A stretch of DNA of 45,565 nt, taken from assembly GCA_012522435.1 (NCBI GenBank), contig JAAYKK010000070.1, positions 1 to 45,565 on the forward strand, given 5' to 3'. Position 1 is the stretch's first letter. Each line of letters begins with the position of its first letter. A model generated the notes under the pieces. That model saw only the letters and a list, made by a program, of their open reading frames with translations. It was not told where the DNA came from and ran no database searches. The translations under genes and the position numbers were made by a program. The stretch is from Clostridiaceae bacterium (GTDB lineage: Bacteria; Bacillota; Clostridia; Saccharofermentanales; DTU023). This document shows positions 8,285-43,075 of this stretch, piece after piece.

Positions 8285-9328
8285 ATGAATCCTGTAGTCA
8301 GATTATTTTTAAAGTTACGGTCAAAACTAAATATAGATATGAAAAAAAATTACAAAACCGTGCGTAATATCCAGGATGTGATAACTCCTGATGTCAGCGA
8401 TCGCTATACCATGTTTGACCATAAAATATATTCTCCGAAGGGTGGTCATAATATTCCAATCCGGGTTTTTTTACCAAATAGTGATTTAAAACCGGGTGCT
8501 TTATTGTTCTTTCATGGTGGAGGCTGGGTAATTGGGAATATAGAGACTTATACTCCGACTTGTGCCCATATGGCAGATGTGACGGGGAAAATTGTTTATT
8601 CAGTTGATTATCGTTTGGCACCGGAACATCCTTTTCCTAAGGGCTTGGATGATTGTTATTACGCATGTACCTATTTAATGGACCATTATGAGAAGGTTAG
8701 AGACGAGCTGGTAGGCGAATTCACTCTGATCGGAGATTCTGCGGGAGCGAATTTAGCTGCAGCCGTATCTTTACGTTTGAGAGACAATCAACAAAAAATA
8801 CCGGCGAAGCAAATCTTGTTTTATCCTGCTACATACTGGGACCATGATGAAGAAACCAGCCCTTTTGAATCGATACGTACCAACGGTCAAGATTACGGTT
8901 TAACTTCAAAACAGATTCAGGAATATATGGAGCTATATGTTCCTGATCCCATTCTACGAAAAACACAAGATGTCTCTCCGCTGATGGCATCGGAGCTCAG
9001 CAATCAACCTGAGACCTTGATCTTAAGTACTGAATATGATCCTTTGCGCGATGAAGGTGAAGCATATGCACACATGCTAAAACAAGCCGGAAATAATGTA
9101 ACTCTGCGTAGAATTCTGGAAGCTCCGCATGGCTTTATTAATTATCCTGATGTAACCGGGGCGATCGAGGAAAGCTACCGCATTATTAATAATTTTTTAT
9201 CTGACCAATTATCTTCAGATAATCTTGCGGATCACAAAAAGGAGGAACATCAAAAGAGCCGTGAATTAACTGAGGAGGAAATAAATAAGCTGGAATATTT
9301 CTTGTCTCAAATTGAGGTTAAGACATGA
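8285..9328 (+). CDS. alpha/beta hydrolase (HSL-type esterase/lipase)
   Basis: LLFFHGGGWVIGN (HGGGW oxyanion motif), LIGDSAGANLAAAV (GDSAG), catalytic D/H near EYDPLRDEG and APHGFINY; ATG at 8285 preceded by gaggag. Confidence 0.88.
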   Translation: MNPVVRLFLKLRSKLNIDMKKNYKTVRNIQDVITPDVSDRYTMFDHKIYSPKGGHNIPIRVFLPNSDLKPGALLFFHGGGWVIGNIETYTPTCAHMADVTGKIVYSVDYRLAPEHPFPKGLDDCYYACTYLMDHYEKVRDELVGEFTLIGDSAGANLAAAVSLRLRDNQQKIPAKQILFYPATYWDHDEETSPFESIRTNGQDYGLTSKQIQEYMELYVPDPILRKTQDVSPLMASELSNQPETLILSTEYDPLRDEGEAYAHMLKQAGNNVTLRRILEAPHGFINYPDVTGAIEESYRIINNFLSDQLSSDNLADHKKEEHQKSRELTEEEINKLEYFLSQIEVKT

Positions 9329-10812
9329 ATTTGGATGAATTACAGAGCAAAACAAGTAGAAAAAGAACCGGTTTACGCTCTTTTATGAGATATTGGTTAA
9401 AACCGGGTCATTCTGTCCAAGATAAATCTCGTAGAAATTGGATGGATCTAGATAATGCTTCAACCATTTTTCCTTCCGTTTTGAATACTACTGATACTAA
9501 AGTTTTCCGTTTTACGGCAACCATTATCGACAATATAGATCCTATTTTATTGCAAAAGGCATTGGAGCAAACATATAATCATTTTCCACTTTATCACTCA
9601 GTAATTAGGCGGGGATTTTTTTGGTATTATTTTGAAGATAGTGATTTGATTCCGGTGGTCCAAAAAGAAACCACAGCACCTTGTATGCCTCTCTATCATT
9701 ATGATCAGAGGAATTTGCTCTTTCGAGTTTTATATTATCAGAATCGAATTCATTTAGAAGTGTTTCATGCACTTTCGGATGGAACCGGAGCTTTCTGGTT
9801 TTTGCAATTATTAGTTACAAATTATATTTTCTTACGTTATCCTGAAAGTTCAGCTCGTACCAGAAATCTAGGCGAGTTATTCAGTCTGCCGCATTACGAA
9901 CCGAACGAGCAAATCGACGACAGCTTCGCTCGTTATTTCAGTAAGAATAAAAGAGAAACTCCAGGAGTTTTTCCTAAACGAAAAAATGAGCCTGCAGATT
10001 ATAAACCTGAGACGAAAAAAACAAAAAATAAGAACAACAAAGAAAACAAGAAAATTTGGAAAAGAATATTTCAGATCCGTGGACGTAGAACTCAGGATAA
10101 TCGCATGCAGATTTTTGAAACCGAGATGCCGGTCAAATCTGTACTCAAACTTGCTAAAGAAAGAGGCGTGACATTATCTGTATTCTTGACCGCTCTTTTT
10201 ATTGAGTCAATTCACCGGACAATCAAAAGCAAACGCAAGAATCGCAGTGTAACGATTTCTGTGCCGATTAATTTACGTCAGTTTTATCCGTCAAATACGG
10301 CAAGAAACTTTTTTGCAACAACCTTGATCGGCTATCAGTTTGGCGAAGCGGGTCAAACTGACTCCTTTGAAAACATTTGTCAGGTCGTTGCAGATCAATA
10401 TGCAGAAGCCGTCAATTTGGAAAATATAGAAAAAAAATTACGTTCACTAATCAGGTTAGAAAAAAATGTTGCTATTCGTCCAATCTTCAGGCCTCTGAAA
10501 GATCTCATTCTTAAAATTGCTAATTTTTTCAACAATCAGGGGATTACTGCCGCTTTATCCAATATGGGCAAGATCACTTTTCCGGAGGCAGTTGAAGACT
10601 ATGTTGAGCAGATTTTTGTATACACTGCGGCAACCAGACCTCAGTTTGCCGCTATAACCCACAAAGATTATTTGACGATTAATTTCAGCTCGCCATATCA
10701 GAACACCGATATCCAGAAGAACTTTGTCAGACGCTTAACAGAGTTAAAAGTTCCGATAACTGTAGGTGCGAATCAAGTGAATCCTCCGGAGGAAGATAAT
10801 GAGATATTGTAA
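9325..10812 (+). CDS. alcohol-acetyltransferase / condensation-domain-like acyltransferase
   Basis: LEVFHALSDGTGAFWFLQLL (HxxxDG motif), two-lobe arrangement with SVPINLRQFYPSNTARNFF; ATGA overlap with upstream ORF. Confidence 0.75.
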   Translation: MNLDELQSKTSRKRTGLRSFMRYWLKPGHSVQDKSRRNWMDLDNASTIFPSVLNTTDTKVFRFTATIIDNIDPILLQKALEQTYNHFPLYHSVIRRGFFWYYFEDSDLIPVVQKETTAPCMPLYHYDQRNLLFRVLYYQNRIHLEVFHALSDGTGAFWFLQLLVTNYIFLRYPESSARTRNLGELFSLPHYEPNEQIDDSFARYFSKNKRETPGVFPKRKNEPADYKPETKKTKNKNNKENKKIWKRIFQIRGRRTQDNRMQIFETEMPVKSVLKLAKERGVTLSVFLTALFIESIHRTIKSKRKNRSVTISVPINLRQFYPSNTARNFFATTLIGYQFGEAGQTDSFENICQVVADQYAEAVNLENIEKKLRSLIRLEKNVAIRPIFRPLKDLILKIANFFNNQGITAALSNMGKITFPEAVEDYVEQIFVYTAATRPQFAAITHKDYLTINFSSPYQNTDIQKNFVRRLTELKVPITVGANQVNPPEEDNEIL

Positions 10813-29902: not shown

Positions 29903-30892
29903 TTATTTTTCTGTGAAATATGCTTCAAGAGCTTCCGGTGAATCTTCGGGTATTGACTTAAAACGGTCAATCGGTAATGGTTCTAAAAATCCCCAATCAC
30001 CGAATCTGATTTGATCGGATTTGGTTTGCAGCATGCTTTGCAAAAGACCTGTGGTCTGACTTTCCAAGGTATCAATATAATGGACGATAGCAGCGGCAAT
30101 TGAAGTCGGTCTGTCTCCAAAATCTCCATGATGTCCGGAGATTACACTTTGCACTTGACGGTAAAAAGTTTCATCATATAAATCAATGATCGCATCTTTA
30201 AATAAAGCAATAAATTCAATGCCGCGTACTCTATGGTTTGCGTACCAGTATTTGGCAGGAGCTAAATCATCATATTCAAAAACTTTTCCGATATCGTGTA
30301 CGGTAACGGCAAAGGCTAATAAATCAGCACATTCCTGTAATTCAGGATTATTTTCTAAAATTGCAGCTAAGATATTTAAGGTTTTGGTGGTATGATTGAC
30401 CAAACCGCCAATTTTATTGTCATGATAATAAATTGCAGCTCCTTCAATCGTAAAACGACCTTCAAGTTCGGGTGCATTGAGAACAGTTTGAATTAATTGC
30501 CAACAAGCCTCAGTCGTTCCTAAATCACGCAATTTTGCCATTGCATTCCGCCAATTATTTTTGATCTGATCAGCTGGTATTTTAGGTAAAAAATCATGTT
30601 TGGAAATATTTTCATTTCTACTGACCTCAACTCTGCGCACTGTAAAATAAAAACCGTTATATTCTGAACCTATGACTTCAACATCATAAATTCCGCTTCC
30701 ATGAGCTTGAATTGTCGAATAGATTTCTTCTTCCCAGACTCTGAATTCAAATTGAGCGTCTTGAGATAAAAAGTTACCCACCATAAAATCATTTTTTTTA
30801 CCGGAACGAATTGAAGGGACCGCATTGATCAATACTGTACCTTCGGAAACTTTTCCTTTTACTGCTGCTTCGGTTAAATTTAAAATAGGCAT
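29903..30892 (-). CDS. OB-fold plus HD-domain protein, YhaM-type 3'-5' exoribonuclease
   Basis: Domain order OB-like N-terminus then HTKTLNILAAILENN...FAVTVHDIGKVFEYDD (HD) and VISGHHGDFG, as in YhaM. Confidence 0.82.
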   Translation of the reverse strand: MPILNLTEAAVKGKVSEGTVLINAVPSIRSGKKNDFMVGNFLSQDAQFEFRVWEEEIYSTIQAHGSGIYDVEVIGSEYNGFYFTVRRVEVSRNENISKHDFLPKIPADQIKNNWRNAMAKLRDLGTTEACWQLIQTVLNAPELEGRFTIEGAAIYYHDNKIGGLVNHTTKTLNILAAILENNPELQECADLLAFAVTVHDIGKVFEYDDLAPAKYWYANHRVRGIEFIALFKDAIIDLYDETFYRQVQSVISGHHGDFGDRPTSIAAAIVHYIDTLESQTTGLLQSMLQTKSDQIRFGDWGFLEPLPIDRFKSIPEDSPEALEAYFTEK

Positions 30893-31080: not shown

Positions 31081-33216
31081 TTGGAGGGAATAGTGGATTC
31101 AGATCAATATAAAACACAAAATTTAGATGATTATGCTGATTGGTTTCTAAACTCGGATATTTTAAAAAATAATGAATATTCAGTTGATTTGTATCCTTAC
31201 GAAAAACTGTTTTCCCAGTATAAATTAAATCAACTTGTACTGAAAAATAGAATAGTCTATCATTCTTCACCGGATTATAATTTGGCTGATCAAATGGGTC
31301 GTCCGGGTACTCCAATGCTCGACTATTATACTCGTTTGGCCAAAGGTGGTGTTGGCTTAATAACTACGGGATCAGTACCGGTATCGGGTTCTATTGATCC
31401 GACAGTAATTGACAAAAATGGCAGATCCGTTTATCCGCAAATAATAGATAATCAGTCTGCACTTGCAGGTTGGTCAGAATTAGCAGAAACTTGCCGAGTT
31501 TTTTCAGCAAGCTTGTTTATGACTTTATCAGCAGGCTTGGGTCAACAAGGTAAAATGGACGATCGATCTGATCAGAAAGGTTTGAAGTCTCTTTTTCGCA
31601 AGAGACCGGTTTCAGCTTCCGGTGGTAAATCTTTTTCACAAAATATAAAATGTCGCAGATTATCCGAGCGCGATTTAGAACAAATTATTGATAATTTTGG
31701 TGAGGCAGCAAAAACGGTTTCAGAGTTAGGTATGGCCGGAGTTTTAATTGAAGGTGGCAGAGACGAGTTACTTGCACAAATGTCTAATCCGATAATCAAT
31801 CAAAGAAAGTTCGGTTCTTTCACAAATTATCAAACTTTTGGTTTGGAGATTGTACGCAGAATAAGAAGAGTCAATGGCCCTAATTTTCCAATTTTATATA
31901 GCCTGGAATTGGATCCGCTTAATTTGGATTGGGATTTTGTTAAAAATCTCATTCAGGCAGGAATTGACGGATTATTGATTCGCTATGGAGTAAAAGATTA
32001 TTCGTGGTTAGCAAAAGGGGTTAGAACTTTGCCGGCAGGATATAATTTAAGAATTGCTGAAACTGTGCGTCAATATTTGTTAGCTGAAAACATTCTGAGC
32101 CACAACGGCTCCGAGATTGCTCTGATTCTTTCTGGGAAATTAGATTTCCCGGATGTGGCAGAACGAGCCTTAGCTAATGAGCTAGGAGATCTAGTCTGTT
32201 TGGATGATGCCTTATTAGCTGATCCCGAGTGGGCTAATAAGGTCTATTGCGGACAAATAGAGCAGATCAGACCTGCGATAGATTCGATACCTGCCAATCA
32301 AAAAAATAAGTCAAGTTCGGTTAATCCTTCAATCGATTACAGATCAGAAGCCTCAGGAACGTTGACCAACAATTTGTCGAAAAAGAAGATAGCTGTAGTA
32401 GGAGCAGGACTTGCCGGAATTGAATGTGCTGTTACTGCCTTTAACAAAGGACATGAAGTTTGGCTTTTTGAGCAAGAGAATAAAATAGGAGGCAGGCTAA
32501 ATAAAACCTTGATTCCTAATTTCAGGATGGATTTGAGCAATTATCTCTCGTGGCAACAAAGAAGAGTATATCGTTTAGCGGAAAGCTACCCTGACTTTCA
32601 TCTTGTTTTAAATGTGATCGCTACAATGTCAATGTTGGAGGAACGTAATTTTGACACGATTGTCTTAGCTAATGGTGGAAAACCGAAGCAGCTTGCTTTT
32701 GATAACTCGGCCGATCTGATTGATATTTTCGATTTAGATTTTTCAGATAAAACTGAATCCTCTTTGCTCGAACAATTGAACATCGTCGAGAAAAATAAAA
32801 TAATTATTTTTGGAGAACATCCTCTAGCATTGGATATTGCCTACAATTTGGTCTATGCTTACGACAAAAAAGTTTCTTTATTATTTGAAGGTGAAGAAAA
32901 AACCGACTTGGAATATAATTGGGAAAGCCAACATTTGTTGTTTTTCTTAAAACAAAAAAATGTGGATATTTACTATAATGTAACATTAAAAGAATTGAAT
33001 GAGGATCAGATCAGCTTTCAATCAACTGCCGGAAGATACACTTTGCTTTATGATTTCTTATTTAAAGCTACCGGACTTGAACCGAATCCTGACTTATTTG
33101 AATTATTATATCAATATAAAATTGCTCCACAAGTATATCAAGTTGGAGATTGTTCGAAGCCGGGCAGTATAGCAAATAATGTGAGATCCGGATATAGATT
33201 GGGGATAAATTTGTGA
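31081..33216 (+). CDS. Old Yellow Enzyme / 2,4-dienoyl-CoA reductase-like FMN-type TIM barrel fused to an FAD/NAD(P)-binding domain; key catalytic and Fe-S residues appear missing
   Basis: KNRIVY...TPMLDYYTRLAKGGVGLITTG, ALLADPEWANKVYCGQIEQIRPAI, then KKIAVVGAGLAGIECAVTAFNKGHEVWLFEQENKIGGRL; track start TTG at 31081, RBS ambiguous. Confidence 0.8.
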   Translation: MEGIVDSDQYKTQNLDDYADWFLNSDILKNNEYSVDLYPYEKLFSQYKLNQLVLKNRIVYHSSPDYNLADQMGRPGTPMLDYYTRLAKGGVGLITTGSVPVSGSIDPTVIDKNGRSVYPQIIDNQSALAGWSELAETCRVFSASLFMTLSAGLGQQGKMDDRSDQKGLKSLFRKRPVSASGGKSFSQNIKCRRLSERDLEQIIDNFGEAAKTVSELGMAGVLIEGGRDELLAQMSNPIINQRKFGSFTNYQTFGLEIVRRIRRVNGPNFPILYSLELDPLNLDWDFVKNLIQAGIDGLLIRYGVKDYSWLAKGVRTLPAGYNLRIAETVRQYLLAENILSHNGSEIALILSGKLDFPDVAERALANELGDLVCLDDALLADPEWANKVYCGQIEQIRPAIDSIPANQKNKSSSVNPSIDYRSEASGTLTNNLSKKKIAVVGAGLAGIECAVTAFNKGHEVWLFEQENKIGGRLNKTLIPNFRMDLSNYLSWQQRRVYRLAESYPDFHLVLNVIATMSMLEERNFDTIVLANGGKPKQLAFDNSADLIDIFDLDFSDKTESSLLEQLNIVEKNKIIIFGEHPLALDIAYNLVYAYDKKVSLLFEGEEKTDLEYNWESQHLLFFLKQKNVDIYYNVTLKELNEDQISFQSTAGRYTLLYDFLFKATGLEPNPDLFELLYQYKIAPQVYQVGDCSKPGSIANNVRSGYRLGINL

Positions 33217-34316
33217 GTAATCGTTTACCATTAAAAATAGCGCTTGTGGGTTGCGGTAGAGTCGCTGAAAAACATCTGCAAGCAATCAATTATCTGGCAA
33301 AAAAGAATAAAAATAGGGTTAAGAGAGTTGAACTCACAGCATTGGTTGACCCTTTCGCGGAAGCGCGACAACGGATTTTAGAAAAATATAAACATCGAAA
33401 TCAAGTTAACTTCTTTGACTCATTAGAGCAGATGTTCAGCAATTTAACTAATCACAAGAACAAACCTGATCTTGTGGCAATTACCACACCTTCAAGCCAG
33501 CATTATAAACAAGCAAAACTTGCTTTGCAAAATGATTGTCACCTTTTTATTGAAAAGCCGATAGCTTTAAAATTGGATCACGCAACAGAAATTCTAAATT
33601 TAGCAGAGAATAAAAATAAAAAAATAGCTGTCGGTCATATATTCAGATATTTTCCGGTTATCGGCTTAATTGCTGCAGACCTGGCCGAGGGGGTTTTCGG
33701 AAAGCCTCTTTATGGGAATGTTAGTGTGCGGTGGGGGCATGATCAAGCTTATTACGATCAAGCTAGCTGGCGAGGCACCAGAGAGCACGACGGAGGATCA
33801 ATCATGAATCAAAGCATCCATGCATTGGACCTGATGTATTGGCTTTTAGGTGAACCTGAATTATTATCTGCTAAAGGCAGCCTTAGCACCCAAATTCATC
33901 AAATGGAATCAGAAGATTTAGGCTTCGGCATTTTTGAATTTGCAGATGATCGCTGGTTATCCGTTGAAGGTACGACCAACACTGATCCTAATCGACCGGA
34001 AGCCTCATTTTTTCTCCGCTATACCAAAGGAGAGATTAGGGCGGGTATTTTAGCGGGCAAAATTTCATTTTCGATTCTTGATCAAAATGGTCAGCAGTTG
34101 AGGCTAAAATATCTGAAATGTGACATCTTACAACGCATCAAGCAAGAAGGATTTTCTTATTTATTACAGATCAGCAACCCGCATACCGGAATATATTTGG
34201 ATTTGATCAATGCCATTTCATTAGATCAAGAGCCATTGGCGGATGGATTAAGTGGTCTCAAGGCCTTGGAAATGGTTATAGCGTTATATGAAGATGCAGG
34301 TGTAGATAGTGTATAA
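33213..34316 (+). CDS. Gfo/Idh/MocA family oxidoreductase
   Basis: IALVGCGRVAEKHLQAI (Rossmann), CHLFIEKPIAL (EKP), HDGGSIMNQSIHALDLMYWLLGEP; GTG start overlapping upstream TGA. Confidence 0.92.
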   Translation: MSNRLPLKIALVGCGRVAEKHLQAINYLAKKNKNRVKRVELTALVDPFAEARQRILEKYKHRNQVNFFDSLEQMFSNLTNHKNKPDLVAITTPSSQHYKQAKLALQNDCHLFIEKPIALKLDHATEILNLAENKNKKIAVGHIFRYFPVIGLIAADLAEGVFGKPLYGNVSVRWGHDQAYYDQASWRGTREHDGGSIMNQSIHALDLMYWLLGEPELLSAKGSLSTQIHQMESEDLGFGIFEFADDRWLSVEGTTNTDPNRPEASFFLRYTKGEIRAGILAGKISFSILDQNGQQLRLKYLKCDILQRIKQEGFSYLLQISNPHTGIYLDLINAISLDQEPLADGLSGLKALEMVIALYEDAGVDSV

Positions 34317-34428: not shown

Positions 34429-35352
34429 ATGAAATTAGCTATTAAAACTTGTACTTTAGATTTACCTTATCTTGAAATGTTAGATTTTTGTGTAGATCAA
34501 GATGTCGGGTTAATTGAACTCGGTACTGGGAATTGGTCAAGTGCACCACACCTTGATTTAGATCAGCTACTTTCATCAGAAGCTACCTTAAACCAATGGC
34601 TTTCAGAACAGGAAAAACGAAATATAAAAGTTTGTGCTTTGAATTGTTCGGGCAATCCTTTGGCTTATGAAGAGGATTTGGTGGTAACATATAAAACTTT
34701 TCAATTGGCCGAAAAGATAGGGGTCAAAAAGATAGTCATGATGAGCGGTCTTCCGCCCGGGCACAAAAATGATCGGACACCCGCTTGGATTACAACTAGT
34801 TGGCCACCGGAAACACAAGATATATTAGAGTATCAATGGAATGAAGTTGCAATTCCTGTATGGGGGGAAATTATTAAAAAGGCCAAAAACCATGGCATAG
34901 AAAAGATAGCTCTAGAGAATCATGGTATGCAATTGGTCTACAATCCTGAAACTTTATTCAAATTAAGATCTGAAATAGGCCCGATGGTCGGTATGAATCT
35001 TGACCCTTCACATTTATTCTGGATGGGCAGCAATCCGATAGATGCCGTAAGAATCTTGGGAGAGCAAAATGCAATTTATTTTGTTCATGGCAAAGATGCC
35101 AGAATAGAAGTAAGAAATAATGCGCCCAATGGTGTTTTGGATACAAAGCCAATTGAGCGTTTCAAAGAAAGATCTTGGAATTATGTTGCTGTCGGTGCCG
35201 GACATGACCAACAATGGTGGCATGAGTTTGTTTCAATACTTCGCATGTATGGCTATGATGATATCATCTCATTGGAGATGGAAGATTTAACGATGTCGTC
35301 CTATTCCGGACATTTGATTTCTTTAGAAACATTAAGAAAAGCAATAAGATAA
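34429..35352 (+). CDS. sugar phosphate isomerase/epimerase (xylose-isomerase-like TIM barrel)
   Basis: IALENHG, VGMNLDPSHLFWMGSNPIDAVRIL, IYFVHGKDA, VGAGHDQQWWHEFVSIL, ISLEMED. Confidence 0.88.
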   Translation: MKLAIKTCTLDLPYLEMLDFCVDQDVGLIELGTGNWSSAPHLDLDQLLSSEATLNQWLSEQEKRNIKVCALNCSGNPLAYEEDLVVTYKTFQLAEKIGVKKIVMMSGLPPGHKNDRTPAWITTSWPPETQDILEYQWNEVAIPVWGEIIKKAKNHGIEKIALENHGMQLVYNPETLFKLRSEIGPMVGMNLDPSHLFWMGSNPIDAVRILGEQNAIYFVHGKDARIEVRNNAPNGVLDTKPIERFKERSWNYVAVGAGHDQQWWHEFVSILRMYGYDDIISLEMEDLTMSSYSGHLISLETLRKAIR

Positions 35353-38157: not shown

Positions 38158-39252
38158 CTATTCTACATAAAAGTAAAAAGTCCGCTCGGCAAACTTCAAA
38201 CGGCATTGGTCAGGCAACAACTGGGTTTGATGTTTGTTGAGCTTTTTTCCGTCTAATGTAGTTCCATTGGCTGATCCGAGATCTTCTAAGAAATAATGGC
38301 TACCATGGCGAGAAATTCTGGCATGAAGTCTGCCCACAGATTTCTCAGGTAAAACTAAGTCACAAATTAATTTATCTCTTCCTATCAAAAATTCATCAAC
38401 CAGAATGAAAGCTCTCAATCCTTCATTTTCAGCTACTGTTCCTGGAGGGCCTTCCGAAATCATCGCTAAACGAAATAAATCATCTTGAGGATTAAGGGGT
38501 ACTGTGGTTTCAGTGGGTATGACAGTTCGAATTCTTTTGGTAAAAAACAATTGTTTTATTCTGGAGAATATATTCAACTGATTTTTCTTTTTTCTATCTT
38601 TATCAAATCTATTTCGAGAATGATTTGCTTTTGGTTTTGAATTTTTCATAGGTAATATTTGTTCGTTTAGATTCTTAGTTTCGGGTTCAATTTTTTGATA
38701 TATATTATGCAAATAATATAATGCTTCCTGATAATGAGCTTGTTTAATAAATTCATAATGAGTTGTACTAGCTTTTTTCAACTCAGGCTCTTTCTTTGCG
38801 ATATATTGCCAGAGATTAATTGCTTGATTATTTTTTCCTGCACCGGTTTGATTGATCATGCAATTCTCCGGCAAGGTTAACCATTTGATTTTTTCGATTT
38901 CGAATTTTTGATGATAACAAATAATTAATTCAGGTTTGATTAATTGAAGATTTGGTTTAAGCATCAAACTTTGTAAAGTTAACAAATTATCTGTTAAGAG
39001 CATTAATAATTTTAGAAAAAATCTATGTTTATGTATGACGCTTATTTCTTGAAATTGATTATCTAGCAGGATGTTTGTCAAGAAAAGTTGTTGTTCAGAT
39101 ACATTAATTAAGAGATAATTTTTGTTTTGTTGTTGATCAAAAATTTTTATTTGTTCCAAGGAAAAATCTAAGTTCAGCTCAATCAAGTGCAAAAGATTTG
39201 ACTCTTGCACTTGATTGAGATCTGAAAGTTTCAGTTGGAGATATTTGATCAT
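38158..39252 (-). CDS. FHA domain-containing protein, DUF6382-like N-terminus
   Basis: C-terminal FLIGRDKLICDLVLPEKSVGRLHARISRHGSHYFLEDLGSANGTTLDGKKL (FHA); adjacent to Tad genes. Confidence 0.85.
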   Translation of the reverse strand: MIKYLQLKLSDLNQVQESNLLHLIELNLDFSLEQIKIFDQQQNKNYLLINVSEQQLFLTNILLDNQFQEISVIHKHRFFLKLLMLLTDNLLTLQSLMLKPNLQLIKPELIICYHQKFEIEKIKWLTLPENCMINQTGAGKNNQAINLWQYIAKKEPELKKASTTHYEFIKQAHYQEALYYLHNIYQKIEPETKNLNEQILPMKNSKPKANHSRNRFDKDRKKKNQLNIFSRIKQLFFTKRIRTVIPTETTVPLNPQDDLFRLAMISEGPPGTVAENEGLRAFILVDEFLIGRDKLICDLVLPEKSVGRLHARISRHGSHYFLEDLGSANGTTLDGKKLNKHQTQLLPDQCRLKFAERTFYFYVE

Positions 39253-39259
39253 CTTTATC

Positions 39260-39442
39260 CTAATAGCTTATACCGTCAATTATTGAATAGTCGAATACTT
39301 TGTTAATTAGACTTTGAGCAAAACTTGATAATTGTGCTCTGAAGATTAAGGCCACAGTGACTAAGACAGCGATTATTAAAACAATTTCTAATGTACCTAG
39401 ACCGCTTTCATCAGTGATCTTTTTTTTGATGTTTTTTAACAT
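39260..39442 (-). CDS. Flp-type (type IVb) prepilin
   Basis: KKKITDESG|LGTLEIVLIIAVLVTVALIF: type IV prepilin-like G|xxxxE followed by hydrophobic helix; about 60 aa; internal ATG preferred. Confidence 0.8.
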   Translation of the reverse strand: MLKNIKKKITDESGLGTLEIVLIIAVLVTVALIFRAQLSSFAQSLINKVFDYSIIDGISY

Positions 39443-39487
39443 TGTGATTAAACCTCTCTTTCGTATTAATTCCATAAATTTTCGTTG

Positions 39488-40999
39488 CTATATTTGCATG
39501 CTACTTAGACTAGCGATAGCAGGTAGCATTGCCATTATGATTACGATGAACAAATCAATTGCCATCGGAAACAGTAAACCCATATTCTGTGTTTGTAACC
39601 GACGTCGCATGGCATTACGATACAATTGCCAGCTGGCGTTCGCCTGTAAATCTAGAATGTCCAATATTTCTTGTCCGCCATCTCTGTCATAGCGGGCCAT
39701 TAGTTGTAGCACGGAGGCAATTTCTTCCTGAGGTAGATTATCCGTAATTTGCAATAAGGCAAATGAAGCAGTTTCTCCTAAACTTAACATCTGTTTTATG
39801 TTGTCCAAATCGGATTTTAATTGAGAATTAATATTATGGCGATATGACTCGATCATTAATCTGAGACTACGATCAAGACTGATACCACTACGTAATAGAA
39901 TGACCATTGAATTTAAGAAATTAGGATATTCAATTCTGATTTGTTGTTTTAATTTATTTTCTCGCTGTATGAGATCAAGATCCGGAATAAACCAGGTAAA
40001 TAATAGGATTACAGATAATAAAGACCAAGCTATGATTTCTAAAATACATAGTATTCCACTAATCAAGCCAACTATTATTATCAAAATGATCTTACGTTTA
40101 ATATAAAGTAACCATGCGTTAGGCTTATCATGAGATAGAATTCTTAAAGTGTTGGCCAGGCGATAACCAAAAAAGCTCGGTGTATGTATTAAAGTAAATT
40201 GAGCACAAGCTGAAATGATTTTCGATTTCGGTTTTTGCCCCTTTAATTTAAGAAAAACATCTTTTTCTTTGAAGTTTTCCGGATTTTGAGCAAGAACAAT
40301 TAAGGTCCAAGCAATTGCTACCTGAGAGACTACAAAAATGATTGCTAAGAGTGGTTTACTCCAGCTTACATCGGCTAATGAACCGGCATAAGAGGAACTG
40401 TTTTTGATTAAAACCAATGAAAATAAAAAAGGCAAAAACATTAAAACTATTGCTTCGCTGTTTTGTGCGTTTTGTTCGGCAGAGATATCTTTTTGCATTT
40501 GGATCTCTGCATTCAAAGTTCGATGTGTTTGTTTTACATAAATATCTAAACGACCTCCGTAATGATTAAGATAAGGCAATACATCAAAAAAAGATTCACT
40601 TGTTTTGCAGTTGAATTGTTCTTTTAAGATTCTGAGGCATCGTTCTAAATTAAGTTGAGCCTGCATGCCTTGGTTTAATTGTTTTAAACATTTTGCCAAA
40701 GTGCTTTTTCGTCCGAGTTCGTCTGCTAAACGCTCAGAAGCTTCAAGCAACGATGATTCTAGAGTGTGTCCGGCTGACAAACGACTGCTCAAATATTCTA
40801 AAAGAATTTTATATTGTTCTATTTTGACTGAAGCTGTTCGACCACTCATAAATTTGCTCAGACCGAAACCGATAATTATTGTTGAGATCCCTAAAATAAT
40901 AATTTCAAGATTTTCCAGATTGATCCAAGTCAGAGAAGTTAAATATACAAAGAACAAGGTAGGAATCAGATGTTTGATAAAATGTTTTAGCTTAGACAT
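39488..40999 (-). CDS. type II secretion system F family protein, apparent tandem TadB-TadC fusion
   Basis: Two T2SSF-like blocks: ILLEYLSSRLSAGHTLESSLLEASERL... and YPNFLNSMVILLRSGISLDRSLRLMIESY..., each followed by TM helices. Confidence 0.82.
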   Translation of the reverse strand: MSKLKHFIKHLIPTLFFVYLTSLTWINLENLEIIILGISTIIIGFGLSKFMSGRTASVKIEQYKILLEYLSSRLSAGHTLESSLLEASERLADELGRKSTLAKCLKQLNQGMQAQLNLERCLRILKEQFNCKTSESFFDVLPYLNHYGGRLDIYVKQTHRTLNAEIQMQKDISAEQNAQNSEAIVLMFLPFLFSLVLIKNSSSYAGSLADVSWSKPLLAIIFVVSQVAIAWTLIVLAQNPENFKEKDVFLKLKGQKPKSKIISACAQFTLIHTPSFFGYRLANTLRILSHDKPNAWLLYIKRKIILIIIVGLISGILCILEIIAWSLLSVILLFTWFIPDLDLIQRENKLKQQIRIEYPNFLNSMVILLRSGISLDRSLRLMIESYRHNINSQLKSDLDNIKQMLSLGETASFALLQITDNLPQEEIASVLQLMARYDRDGGQEILDILDLQANASWQLYRNAMRRRLQTQNMGLLFPMAIDLFIVIIMAMLPAIASLSSMQI

Positions 41000-42132
41000 C
41001 TTAACTCAGCTCCTTCACGAACGAATAAAGGCTCAAGCTGAAACTGCTGATTTTGATATCCTTTTATAGCAGATATTTCCTGAACGATTCTTCTTCCATC
41101 GGGTAATCTGGTCAAATGAATATTGATATCTAAAGCCGATGCAACCAGTCGTTTGATGGCATCCCAGGGTAAACTTGAGCTCATCAAAATCATTAAACTA
41201 ATTCGATCAAGCATCTCCAGACTATTGTTGCCATGACCGGTTGACATTGAACCGGGATGTCCGGTACTCATAGCTTGAATCATATCAAAAGCTTCGGCTC
41301 CTCTTATTTCTCCGACCAGAATTCGATCCGGCCTAAGTCTTAAGGATGAACGGATTAACTGTTCAAGTGTAATGGCTCCTTTGCCGTCAGGTCCGGGTTC
41401 TCTTGCTTCTAAACGAACCAAATTTGGGATATCTTGTAAATCTAATTCAATATTATCTTCAATCGTGACAACTCTTTCCTGTCGACCGATGTATGCCGAT
41501 AATGCATTAAGAAATGTAGTTTTTCCTGTACCGGTTCCTCCGGAAATAAAAACATTTCGTTTTTCGGTTACCGTTTCGATCAAAAATTCAGCAGCTTGTT
41601 GATTTATAGTTTTATGCTCGATCAAAGATTCTAAACGTGGTCTAATTCCGGTAAATCTTCTGATACTTACAACAGGTCCTTCAGGAGCGGAGGGAGGAAG
41701 TATAGCATGAATACGTGATCCATCCTCTAAACGCATTCCGTTAATTGGATTTTGTTCATTAATTAAACGATTAGACCTACCAAAAAATCTGGTTATTACA
41801 TAAGTCAGATGTTCGGGATGATCAAAGACAACCGGGGTTTTATAGATTTGACCTTCTCGTTCAATAAATACATGATTTGCTCCGTTGACCATTATTTCCG
41901 TAATTGAAGAGTCATCCAGAAAAGGTTGCAGTAAATCTAAACCGCGCATTGTGTTAAATAATTGAATGATCAAGATTCTGCGTTCGGACATGGTAAGATC
42001 TGACAGATCTTTATACTGTGCAATTAATTTTGCTAATAATTGCTTCAACTCTTTATCTGATAAACAATCAATATCGTTATGTTTGGCAACTAAATCTTCT
42101 ATAATATTTTGTCTAGCTTGATGATTTAACAT
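40987..42132 (-). CDS. CpaF/TadA-type pilus assembly ATPase
   Basis: FISGGTGTGKTTFLNALSAYI (Walker A), RLRPDRILVGEIRGAEAFDMIQAMSTGHPGSMSTGHGN; start MLNHQARQN preferred. Confidence 0.93.
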   Translation of the reverse strand: MLNHQARQNIIEDLVAKHNDIDCLSDKELKQLLAKLIAQYKDLSDLTMSERRILIIQLFNTMRGLDLLQPFLDDSSITEIMVNGANHVFIEREGQIYKTPVVFDHPEHLTYVITRFFGRSNRLINEQNPINGMRLEDGSRIHAILPPSAPEGPVVSIRRFTGIRPRLESLIEHKTINQQAAEFLIETVTEKRNVFISGGTGTGKTTFLNALSAYIGRQERVVTIEDNIELDLQDIPNLVRLEAREPGPDGKGAITLEQLIRSSLRLRPDRILVGEIRGAEAFDMIQAMSTGHPGSMSTGHGNNSLEMLDRISLMILMSSSLPWDAIKRLVASALDINIHLTRLPDGRRIVQEISAIKGYQNQQFQLEPLFVREGAELRCLS

Positions 42133-42145
42133 ACTAATTATCCTT

Positions 42146-43075
42146 TTAACCTGAAATATCGATCGGTACAAATTGCACATGCGGACTTTTAGTTGCGAGA
42201 AAAGTTGCAACTTCTTCTTTGGCTCTGCGATTACCAAAATTATTTTCGTCCACTAAATCCATATGAAATTTGTCACAAAGAGCAGCTATTTCTTTAACTA
42301 AAGTAAACGATCTGGCTTCAACATCAATCAGTCCGATACTTTCTTTTTCCTGATTCAAAATAAAATCACGAAACAAACGACATGTTTTCAAAATATTATG
42401 CTTGCCATAAGCAAAGATATCTTCAGAAAAGTTACCTGGACGTGGGACAAACATACCGTCTTTTTGGATTTCGAAAATCTGACCAAGATCTTGTTCGGTT
42501 AATGTAAGATCTTGCTCAATTTGCAGTATTAAATCAGATAAATCCGGTCCTTGATGAAAATTAACCCGGTAATTCCAAAAATAGAGAGGCTTTAAAGGTA
42601 GAACAAATATCTTTCTGCCATAAGTCTTTTGTTCAATTAACCATTTCTGAAAAAAGATATGACGCTTTTTTTGATTGAAAGTGAAGAGCAACTGAACTTG
42701 ATTTTGCTTGTGCTCAGCTTTAGGTTGGTTTTCAGCTAAGACTGATAATATAGATTGTACCCAGTCTTTAAGTTTAGTTGTCCGAGAAAGTGATAGATAA
42801 CTTTTGTTGTTTTGATCAGCTATTTTCTTAGCTTGGAAATCATTTTCAAAAATAATAATAAATTTTTTCTGATATTCCTTCGGTATTTGCACTTTGTTAG
42901 TGTTATCCATGATGAGATGGCTTTCATGAATAATTAGTAAGTCCGCATGATTACTACGCGGAATAAATTCAGTTGCTACTGTGATTTCAGCCATCGGTTT
43001 CAATGCATGATTTAGTTTTTCTTTTAATTTTTTGGCGTAGATCGTATTTGGATCTATCAATAATATTGTTTTCAT
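42146..43075 (-). CDS. TadZ/CpaE-like protein (receiver-like N-terminus plus degenerate MinD-like domain)
   Basis: N-terminal MKTILLIDPNTIYAKKLKEKL; position directly upstream of cpaF; GLIDVEARSFTLVKEIAALCDKFHMDLVDEN; no canonical Walker A. Confidence 0.55.
   Translation of the reverse strand: MKTILLIDPNTIYAKKLKEKLNHALKPMAEITVATEFIPRSNHADLLIIHESHLIMDNTNKVQIPKEYQKKFIIIFENDFQAKKIADQNNKSYLSLSRTTKLKDWVQSILSVLAENQPKAEHKQNQVQLLFTFNQKKRHIFFQKWLIEQKTYGRKIFVLPLKPLYFWNYRVNFHQGPDLSDLILQIEQDLTLTEQDLGQIFEIQKDGMFVPRPGNFSEDIFAYGKHNILKTCRLFRDFILNQEKESIGLIDVEARSFTLVKEIAALCDKFHMDLVDENNFGNRRAKEEVATFLATKSPHVQFVPIDISG

Follow-up and report, generated by a model that had tools for sequence, protein, structure and literature searches.

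Gene Organization of the Locus

The window, i.e., the whole stretch of 45,565 nucleotides analyzed here, contains a gene for a protein that resembles Old Yellow Enzyme (OYE) and 2,4-dienoyl-CoA reductase (DCR), followed by a gene for a Gfo/Idh/MocA dehydrogenase, hereafter MocA (Table 1). The initial annotation described the open reading frame at 31081-33216 as open over 711 codons. The frame is indeed open, but the TTG codon at 31081 is probably 12 bases too early. The downstream GTG codon, giving 707 residues, is preferred as the probable true start because a GGAGGG motif precedes it and the N-termini of the orthologues align with it.

Upstream and divergent from this gene pair, an HD-domain protein with weak likeness to the YhaM exoribonuclease (29903-30892) is a neighbor conserved in the genus. 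Downstream, a gene of the AP-endonuclease-2 fold (sugar isomerase-like, 34429-35352) lies between MocA and a gene for a 104-residue protein. It was considered as a member of the system and rejected, since it comes after MocA in the window but at none of the other genus loci read. A secretion/pilus-type cluster encoding an FHA protein, T2SSF, and a T2SSE ATPase occupies the minus strand at 38158-43075, and a Pfam search at E 0.001 returned no match for the 495-residue open reading frame at 9325-10812.

Table 1. Features of the OYE-like gene and its neighbor in the window.
Feature	Position	Strand	Evidence
Likely ribosome-binding site GGAGGG of the OYE-like gene	31083..31088	+	sequence
Putative OYE/2,4-dienoyl-CoA-reductase-like pseudoenzyme, 707 aa, GTG start	31093..33216	+	sequence, Pfam, orthologue alignment
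Degenerate FMN-binding TIM barrel, residues 38-388; T144, E220, G222, E225, S270, and D372 replace Q, H, H, Y, R, and R	31204..32256	+	
Former [4Fe-4S] linker, residues 389-415, cysteine-free in the window protein	32257..32337	+	
FAD-binding GxGxxG kept (VVGAGLAG), about residues 431-443	32383..32422	+	
Former NAD(P)H subdomain, residues 506-660; GxGxxG lost (FGEHPLALD); most conserved and most genus-specific part	32608..33072	+	
Gfo/Idh/MocA dehydrogenase; start overlaps the OYE-like stop (GTGA); K115 and H203 kept	33213..34316	+	

Family Assignment and Overall Fold

The window protein shows the layout of OYE/2,4-dienoyl-CoA reductase-like enzymes, an Oxidored_FMN barrel (Pfam E=3.9e-21) and an FAD/NAD(P) module (Pyr_redox_2, E=2.4e-18), and Pfam, AlphaFold, and Foldseek agree on a full-length fold. 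The AlphaFold model is confident over its whole length (pLDDT 86, pTM 0.88), and its best Foldseek matches, which also span the full length, are 2-naphthoyl-CoA reductase (NCR, PDB 6qkg) and E. coli FadH, the DCR; these are also the best solved relatives of the protein. The score of the protein exceeds the Pfam threshold for the active family, so automatic annotation would probably label it an active reductase.

Loss of Catalytic and Cofactor-Binding Residues

The initial annotation listed three altered motifs, namely VLIEGGRDELLAQMSNP in the His segment, CLDDALLADP at the FMN phosphate, and IRPAIDSIPANQKNKSSSVNP in the Fe-S segment, all of which were recovered exactly. The residues were compared with 49 complete or near-complete intact members of the long-OYE subfamily and with FadH of E. 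coli MG1655, whose published numbering runs one residue behind that of the translation. Both references align with the protein column by column; mere divergence from a reference was therefore rejected as an explanation of the losses. A search for orthologues with the same substitutions showed that four other genomes of the genus share the losses, and their presence in five separate genomes argues against chance.

Relative to the intact members, which hardly vary at the mapped redox sites, the five genus proteins carry Q144T, H220E, H222G, Y225E/A/G, R270S, and R372D/N. The position of the proton-donating Tyr, 225, is thus E, E, E, A, and G across the five copies, and the FMN contacts at 144 and 270 are replaced in all of them, as is the FMN-phosphate Arg, in agreement with the initial annotation. 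The CxxCxxxC...C ligand set is likewise broken: Cys395, Cys398, and Cys402 are replaced in every copy (A/V, S/A, and N/Y/F, respectively), whereas Cys408 (S/C) is lost in only two of the five. The argument from the two missing His residues is weaker. Their loss is real when measured against the intact subfamily, all members of which have both, but its diagnostic value is low because the corresponding residues of E. coli FadH are M and S.

Losses also extend beyond these three sites, to Tyr225, Gln144, Arg270, the NAD(P)H-binding GxGxxG, and three loops that are common to intact relatives and deleted in the genus copies. The DCR-type NAD(P)H motif reads FGEHPLALD at residues 573-581, with G576H and G579A in all five. 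By comparison, the FAD-binding GxGxxG and the C-terminal GD are kept, with G437, G439, G442, G685, and D686 invariant. The 49 intact members define 201 columns with an invariance of 95% or more; of these, 85 have changed in every one of the five genus proteins and 87 are kept.

FadH Q100, Y166, R214, and the phosphate Arg (R311) correspond to T144, E/A/G225, S270, and D/N372, and in a pairwise alignment NCR R245 and Y197 fall at positions 270 and 225. We take FadH Y166, H252, Q100, and R214 to have catalytic or FMN-contact roles. Judged from these alignments, the decisive losses are those of Tyr225 (FadH Tyr166, NCR Tyr197), Arg270 (FadH R214, NCR R245), Gln144, Arg372, and the Cys ligands, and it is from such residues that the window protein is judged to have lost FMN. 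Loss of the NAD(P)H motif alone is not decisive, since NCR likewise lacks an NADPH site (PMC6502838).

Distribution of Intact and Degenerate Forms

The gene is present in five of the seven genomes of the genus and is degenerate in all five; the four other orthologues are 59-61% identical to the window protein. In the sister genera g3 and g4, the orthologues are about 755 residues long, 32-37% identical, intact, and adjoin a Gfo/Idh/MocA gene, and about 38 further, more distant members that were checked are also intact. Long OYE genes were found in 21 of 188 genomes of the order, and every copy with readable motifs outside the genus is intact. Among 391 sampled genomes of the class, a genus-only profile yielded one other strong match, again intact. 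Across the 188 genomes of the order and the 391-genome class sample, the degenerate form is thus seen in one genus alone. When genome contigs were scanned, a single sequence recovered no relatives, whereas an alignment used as the query did.

Long OYE is absent in several lineages of the family. In the two genus genomes without it (G002 and G006), MocA comes immediately after the HD gene, a search for gene remnants gave no significant match, and both genomes branch outside the five carriers. These absences indicate that the OYE-like gene is accessory.

Scanning public genomes added about 45 long-OYE loci (L066-L110) in Clostridia, Spirochaetes, Chloroflexi, Thermodesulfobacteriota, and others. 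Here the long OYE gene (about 755 residues) is recurrently followed by genes for the large and small subunits of aconitase X (15 and 12 loci, respectively; e.g., L074:3971-8015, L103:3986-7984, and L110), an arrangement that looks like a dehydratase plus ene-reductase pathway.

Selection and Shifted Conservation

For pairs among the four closest degenerate copies, the dN/dS of the OYE-like gene is 0.09-0.12 (0.094-0.118) at dS 0.37-0.81; pairs with the window were left out because their dS is saturated. In the same comparison, the neighbors gave 0.077-0.136 (MocA), 0.10-0.15 (CCA), and a tighter 0.04-0.065 (HD). The values are comparable with those of most neighbors, which argues against a decaying pseudogene. 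In the tree, the genus forms one clade on a stem of 3.3 (mixture model) or 1.31 (LG) substitutions per site, a length at which stems are poorly estimated, versus 0.30 for g4; the corresponding MocA stem is only 0.55. A long stem was therefore followed by slow evolution under constraint. Two marks of a pseudoenzyme are observed: catalytic residues of an enzyme fold are lost across orthologues, and selection maintains the gene, as seen from dN/dS within this shallow clade.

The pattern of conservation is also reversed. In all 1176 pairs of intact members, conservation of the barrel exceeds that of the NAD(P)H subdomain, by a mean of 23 points. Between the window protein and each other degenerate copy, identity is 56-58% in the barrel versus 71-73% in the former NAD(P)H part, i.e., 15 points in the opposite direction. 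Residues 506-660, 22% of the length, hold 52 of the 118 genus-specific invariant residues (hypergeometric p 2e-9, a guide only, as it ignores shared descent). Conservation in the degenerate copies is lowest in the Fe-S linker, and the drift at its ligand positions fits disuse. In the barrel, E220, R223, S270, D274, and R297 are new polar residues that have become fixed and could form a new active site.

The Neighboring Gfo/Idh/MocA Dehydrogenase

In the three genera, each long-OYE locus whose contig extends far enough has MocA as the next gene downstream, and the other surroundings differ between them. Within the genus, HD, ThiF-like, and CCA genes lie upstream in the five genomes. In g3, the intact OYE-MocA pair is found near transketolase halves, an aminotransferase, a TetR regulator, and a DeoC-type aldolase, a neighborhood that hints at carbohydrate metabolism.

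Of the 38 genomes in the family, 34 have MocA-like genes, with all seven genera represented, and K115, N199, and H203 are invariant across the 34 aligned copies. Many of these genomes, including two of the genus, have MocA without any long OYE, so MocA is independent of it. A loop insertion of 6-7 residues is found in MocA of the five OYE-bearing genus members and is absent in the two without OYE; this difference goes back to one event in evolution, and genus g2 has a comparable insertion without OYE. As a separate observation, MocA of G005 (L036:10222-11562) carries a repeat-like expansion of QYVDKNxG units in a loop of the NAD domain, which is shorter in G004 and G001. The window MocA and its relatives also share a family-wide conserved NQSIH, with Asn before the catalytic His, a position usually occupied by Asp in the Gfo/Idh/MocA superfamily.

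Interpretation and Alternative Explanations

The OYE-like protein is very probably redox-dead as an ene-reductase. With the sites described above gone, the electron route that leads from NAD(P)H to a substrate by way of FAD, Fe-S, and FMN would be broken. We consider it fairly likely that the protein is a pseudoenzyme that descends from a functional OYE/2,4-dienoyl-CoA reductase-like flavoenzyme of the long form (about 755 residues) and is kept by selection as an accessory that binds through the former NAD(P)H/FAD module. FAD would probably still be held as a structural ligand, and the module would offer a binding surface. A structural or regulatory accessory, or a scaffold, seems reasonably probable in preference to new catalysis. 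The balance tips slightly toward the conversion of a redox multi-cofactor enzyme within one genus, in which the former NAD(P)H subdomain became the functional part and binds a new partner or ligand. The likeliest partner may be the co-transcribed MocA dehydrogenase, whose conserved Lys and His are still in place, although this pairing is proposed only tentatively.

From the sequence and a predicted fold, on which all functional statements made here are based, the pseudoenzyme reading is moderately favored, with new chemistry in the barrel as its main rival. A barrel that lost FMN and gained a non-redox or FAD-only active site is rather unlikely. It would account for T144, E220, G222, R223, S270, D274, and R297 being identical in all five copies where relatives differ, and the pocket would be more open now that the lid loop following residue 274 is deleted. 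Yet the lost family-invariant columns are conserved within the genus no more than the average column (35 of 66, 53%, versus 53% overall), and conservation is lower in both the barrel and the Fe-S linker than in the former NAD(P)H part. An unusual ene-reductase that still binds FMN and uses substitute residues is very improbable: the fold and several barrel glycines are retained, and E. coli DCR and NCR show that the two His may be missing, but the proton-donor site is E/A/G, the FMN-ring Arg and Gln have become Ser and Thr, the phosphate Arg is Asp/Asn, the Fe-S ligand set is incomplete, and the NAD(P)H motif is absent.

It is less credible still that the gene is a decaying pseudogene or relic whose frame is open by accident. 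Many sites are lost and two genus genomes cleanly lack the gene, but a dN/dS of about 0.1, as in housekeeping neighbors, five full-length frames, and 118 genus-specific invariant residues point the other way. The suggestion in the initial annotation of a repurposed or pseudo-enzyme form, and not random decay, is thus borne out by the five degenerate orthologues, the dN/dS, the long stem followed by constraint, and the shifted conservation. An assembly or alignment artefact hardly deserves credence: the genomes are fragmented drafts of 50-160 contigs, but five independent ones show the same flanks and gradual divergence, and the intact sister-genus copies align over their full length.

Intact and degenerate orthologues anchored by synteny, a long stem, and reversed conservation make the pseudoenzyme reading a clean, testable case of bacterial enzyme repurposing; if it is true, the intact sister-genus orthologues at the same locus offer a natural before-and-after pair. 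A limited literature search found no pseudoenzyme of this flavoprotein kind, which does not prove absence.

Comparison with Related Enzymes

NCR shares the three-domain fold over its full length with the window protein (Foldseek TM 0.78/0.83, 23% identity). Whereas NCR has FMN, FAD, [4Fe-4S], R245, and Y197 (PMC6502838), the window protein has S270 and E225 at the two residue positions and lacks the cluster ligands. E. coli FadH has the same domain order and scaffold, but its Y166, H252, R214, Q100, R311, and [4Fe-4S] Cys residues have no equivalent in the window protein. Trimethylamine and histamine dehydrogenases also have this fold, and the replacement of FAD by ADP in them is a precedent for a vestigial nucleotide site (PMC6502838). 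They retain catalysis and Fe-S, whereas the window protein has lost the FMN side and kept the FAD motif. Full-length similarity to the NCBIfam models of BaiCD, bilirubin reductase, and mycofactocin OYE is detectable, but the scores of 125-163 bits are far under the curated cut-offs of 750-825.

The uncharacterised long OYE family (about 755 residues, with HGHEGYL; L038-L048 and L068-L110) includes the g3 and g4 orthologues, which share the MocA neighbor and the N-terminal extension with the window protein. Unlike the window protein, its members are intact and keep the three extra loops, and the distant ones often adjoin aconitase X genes.
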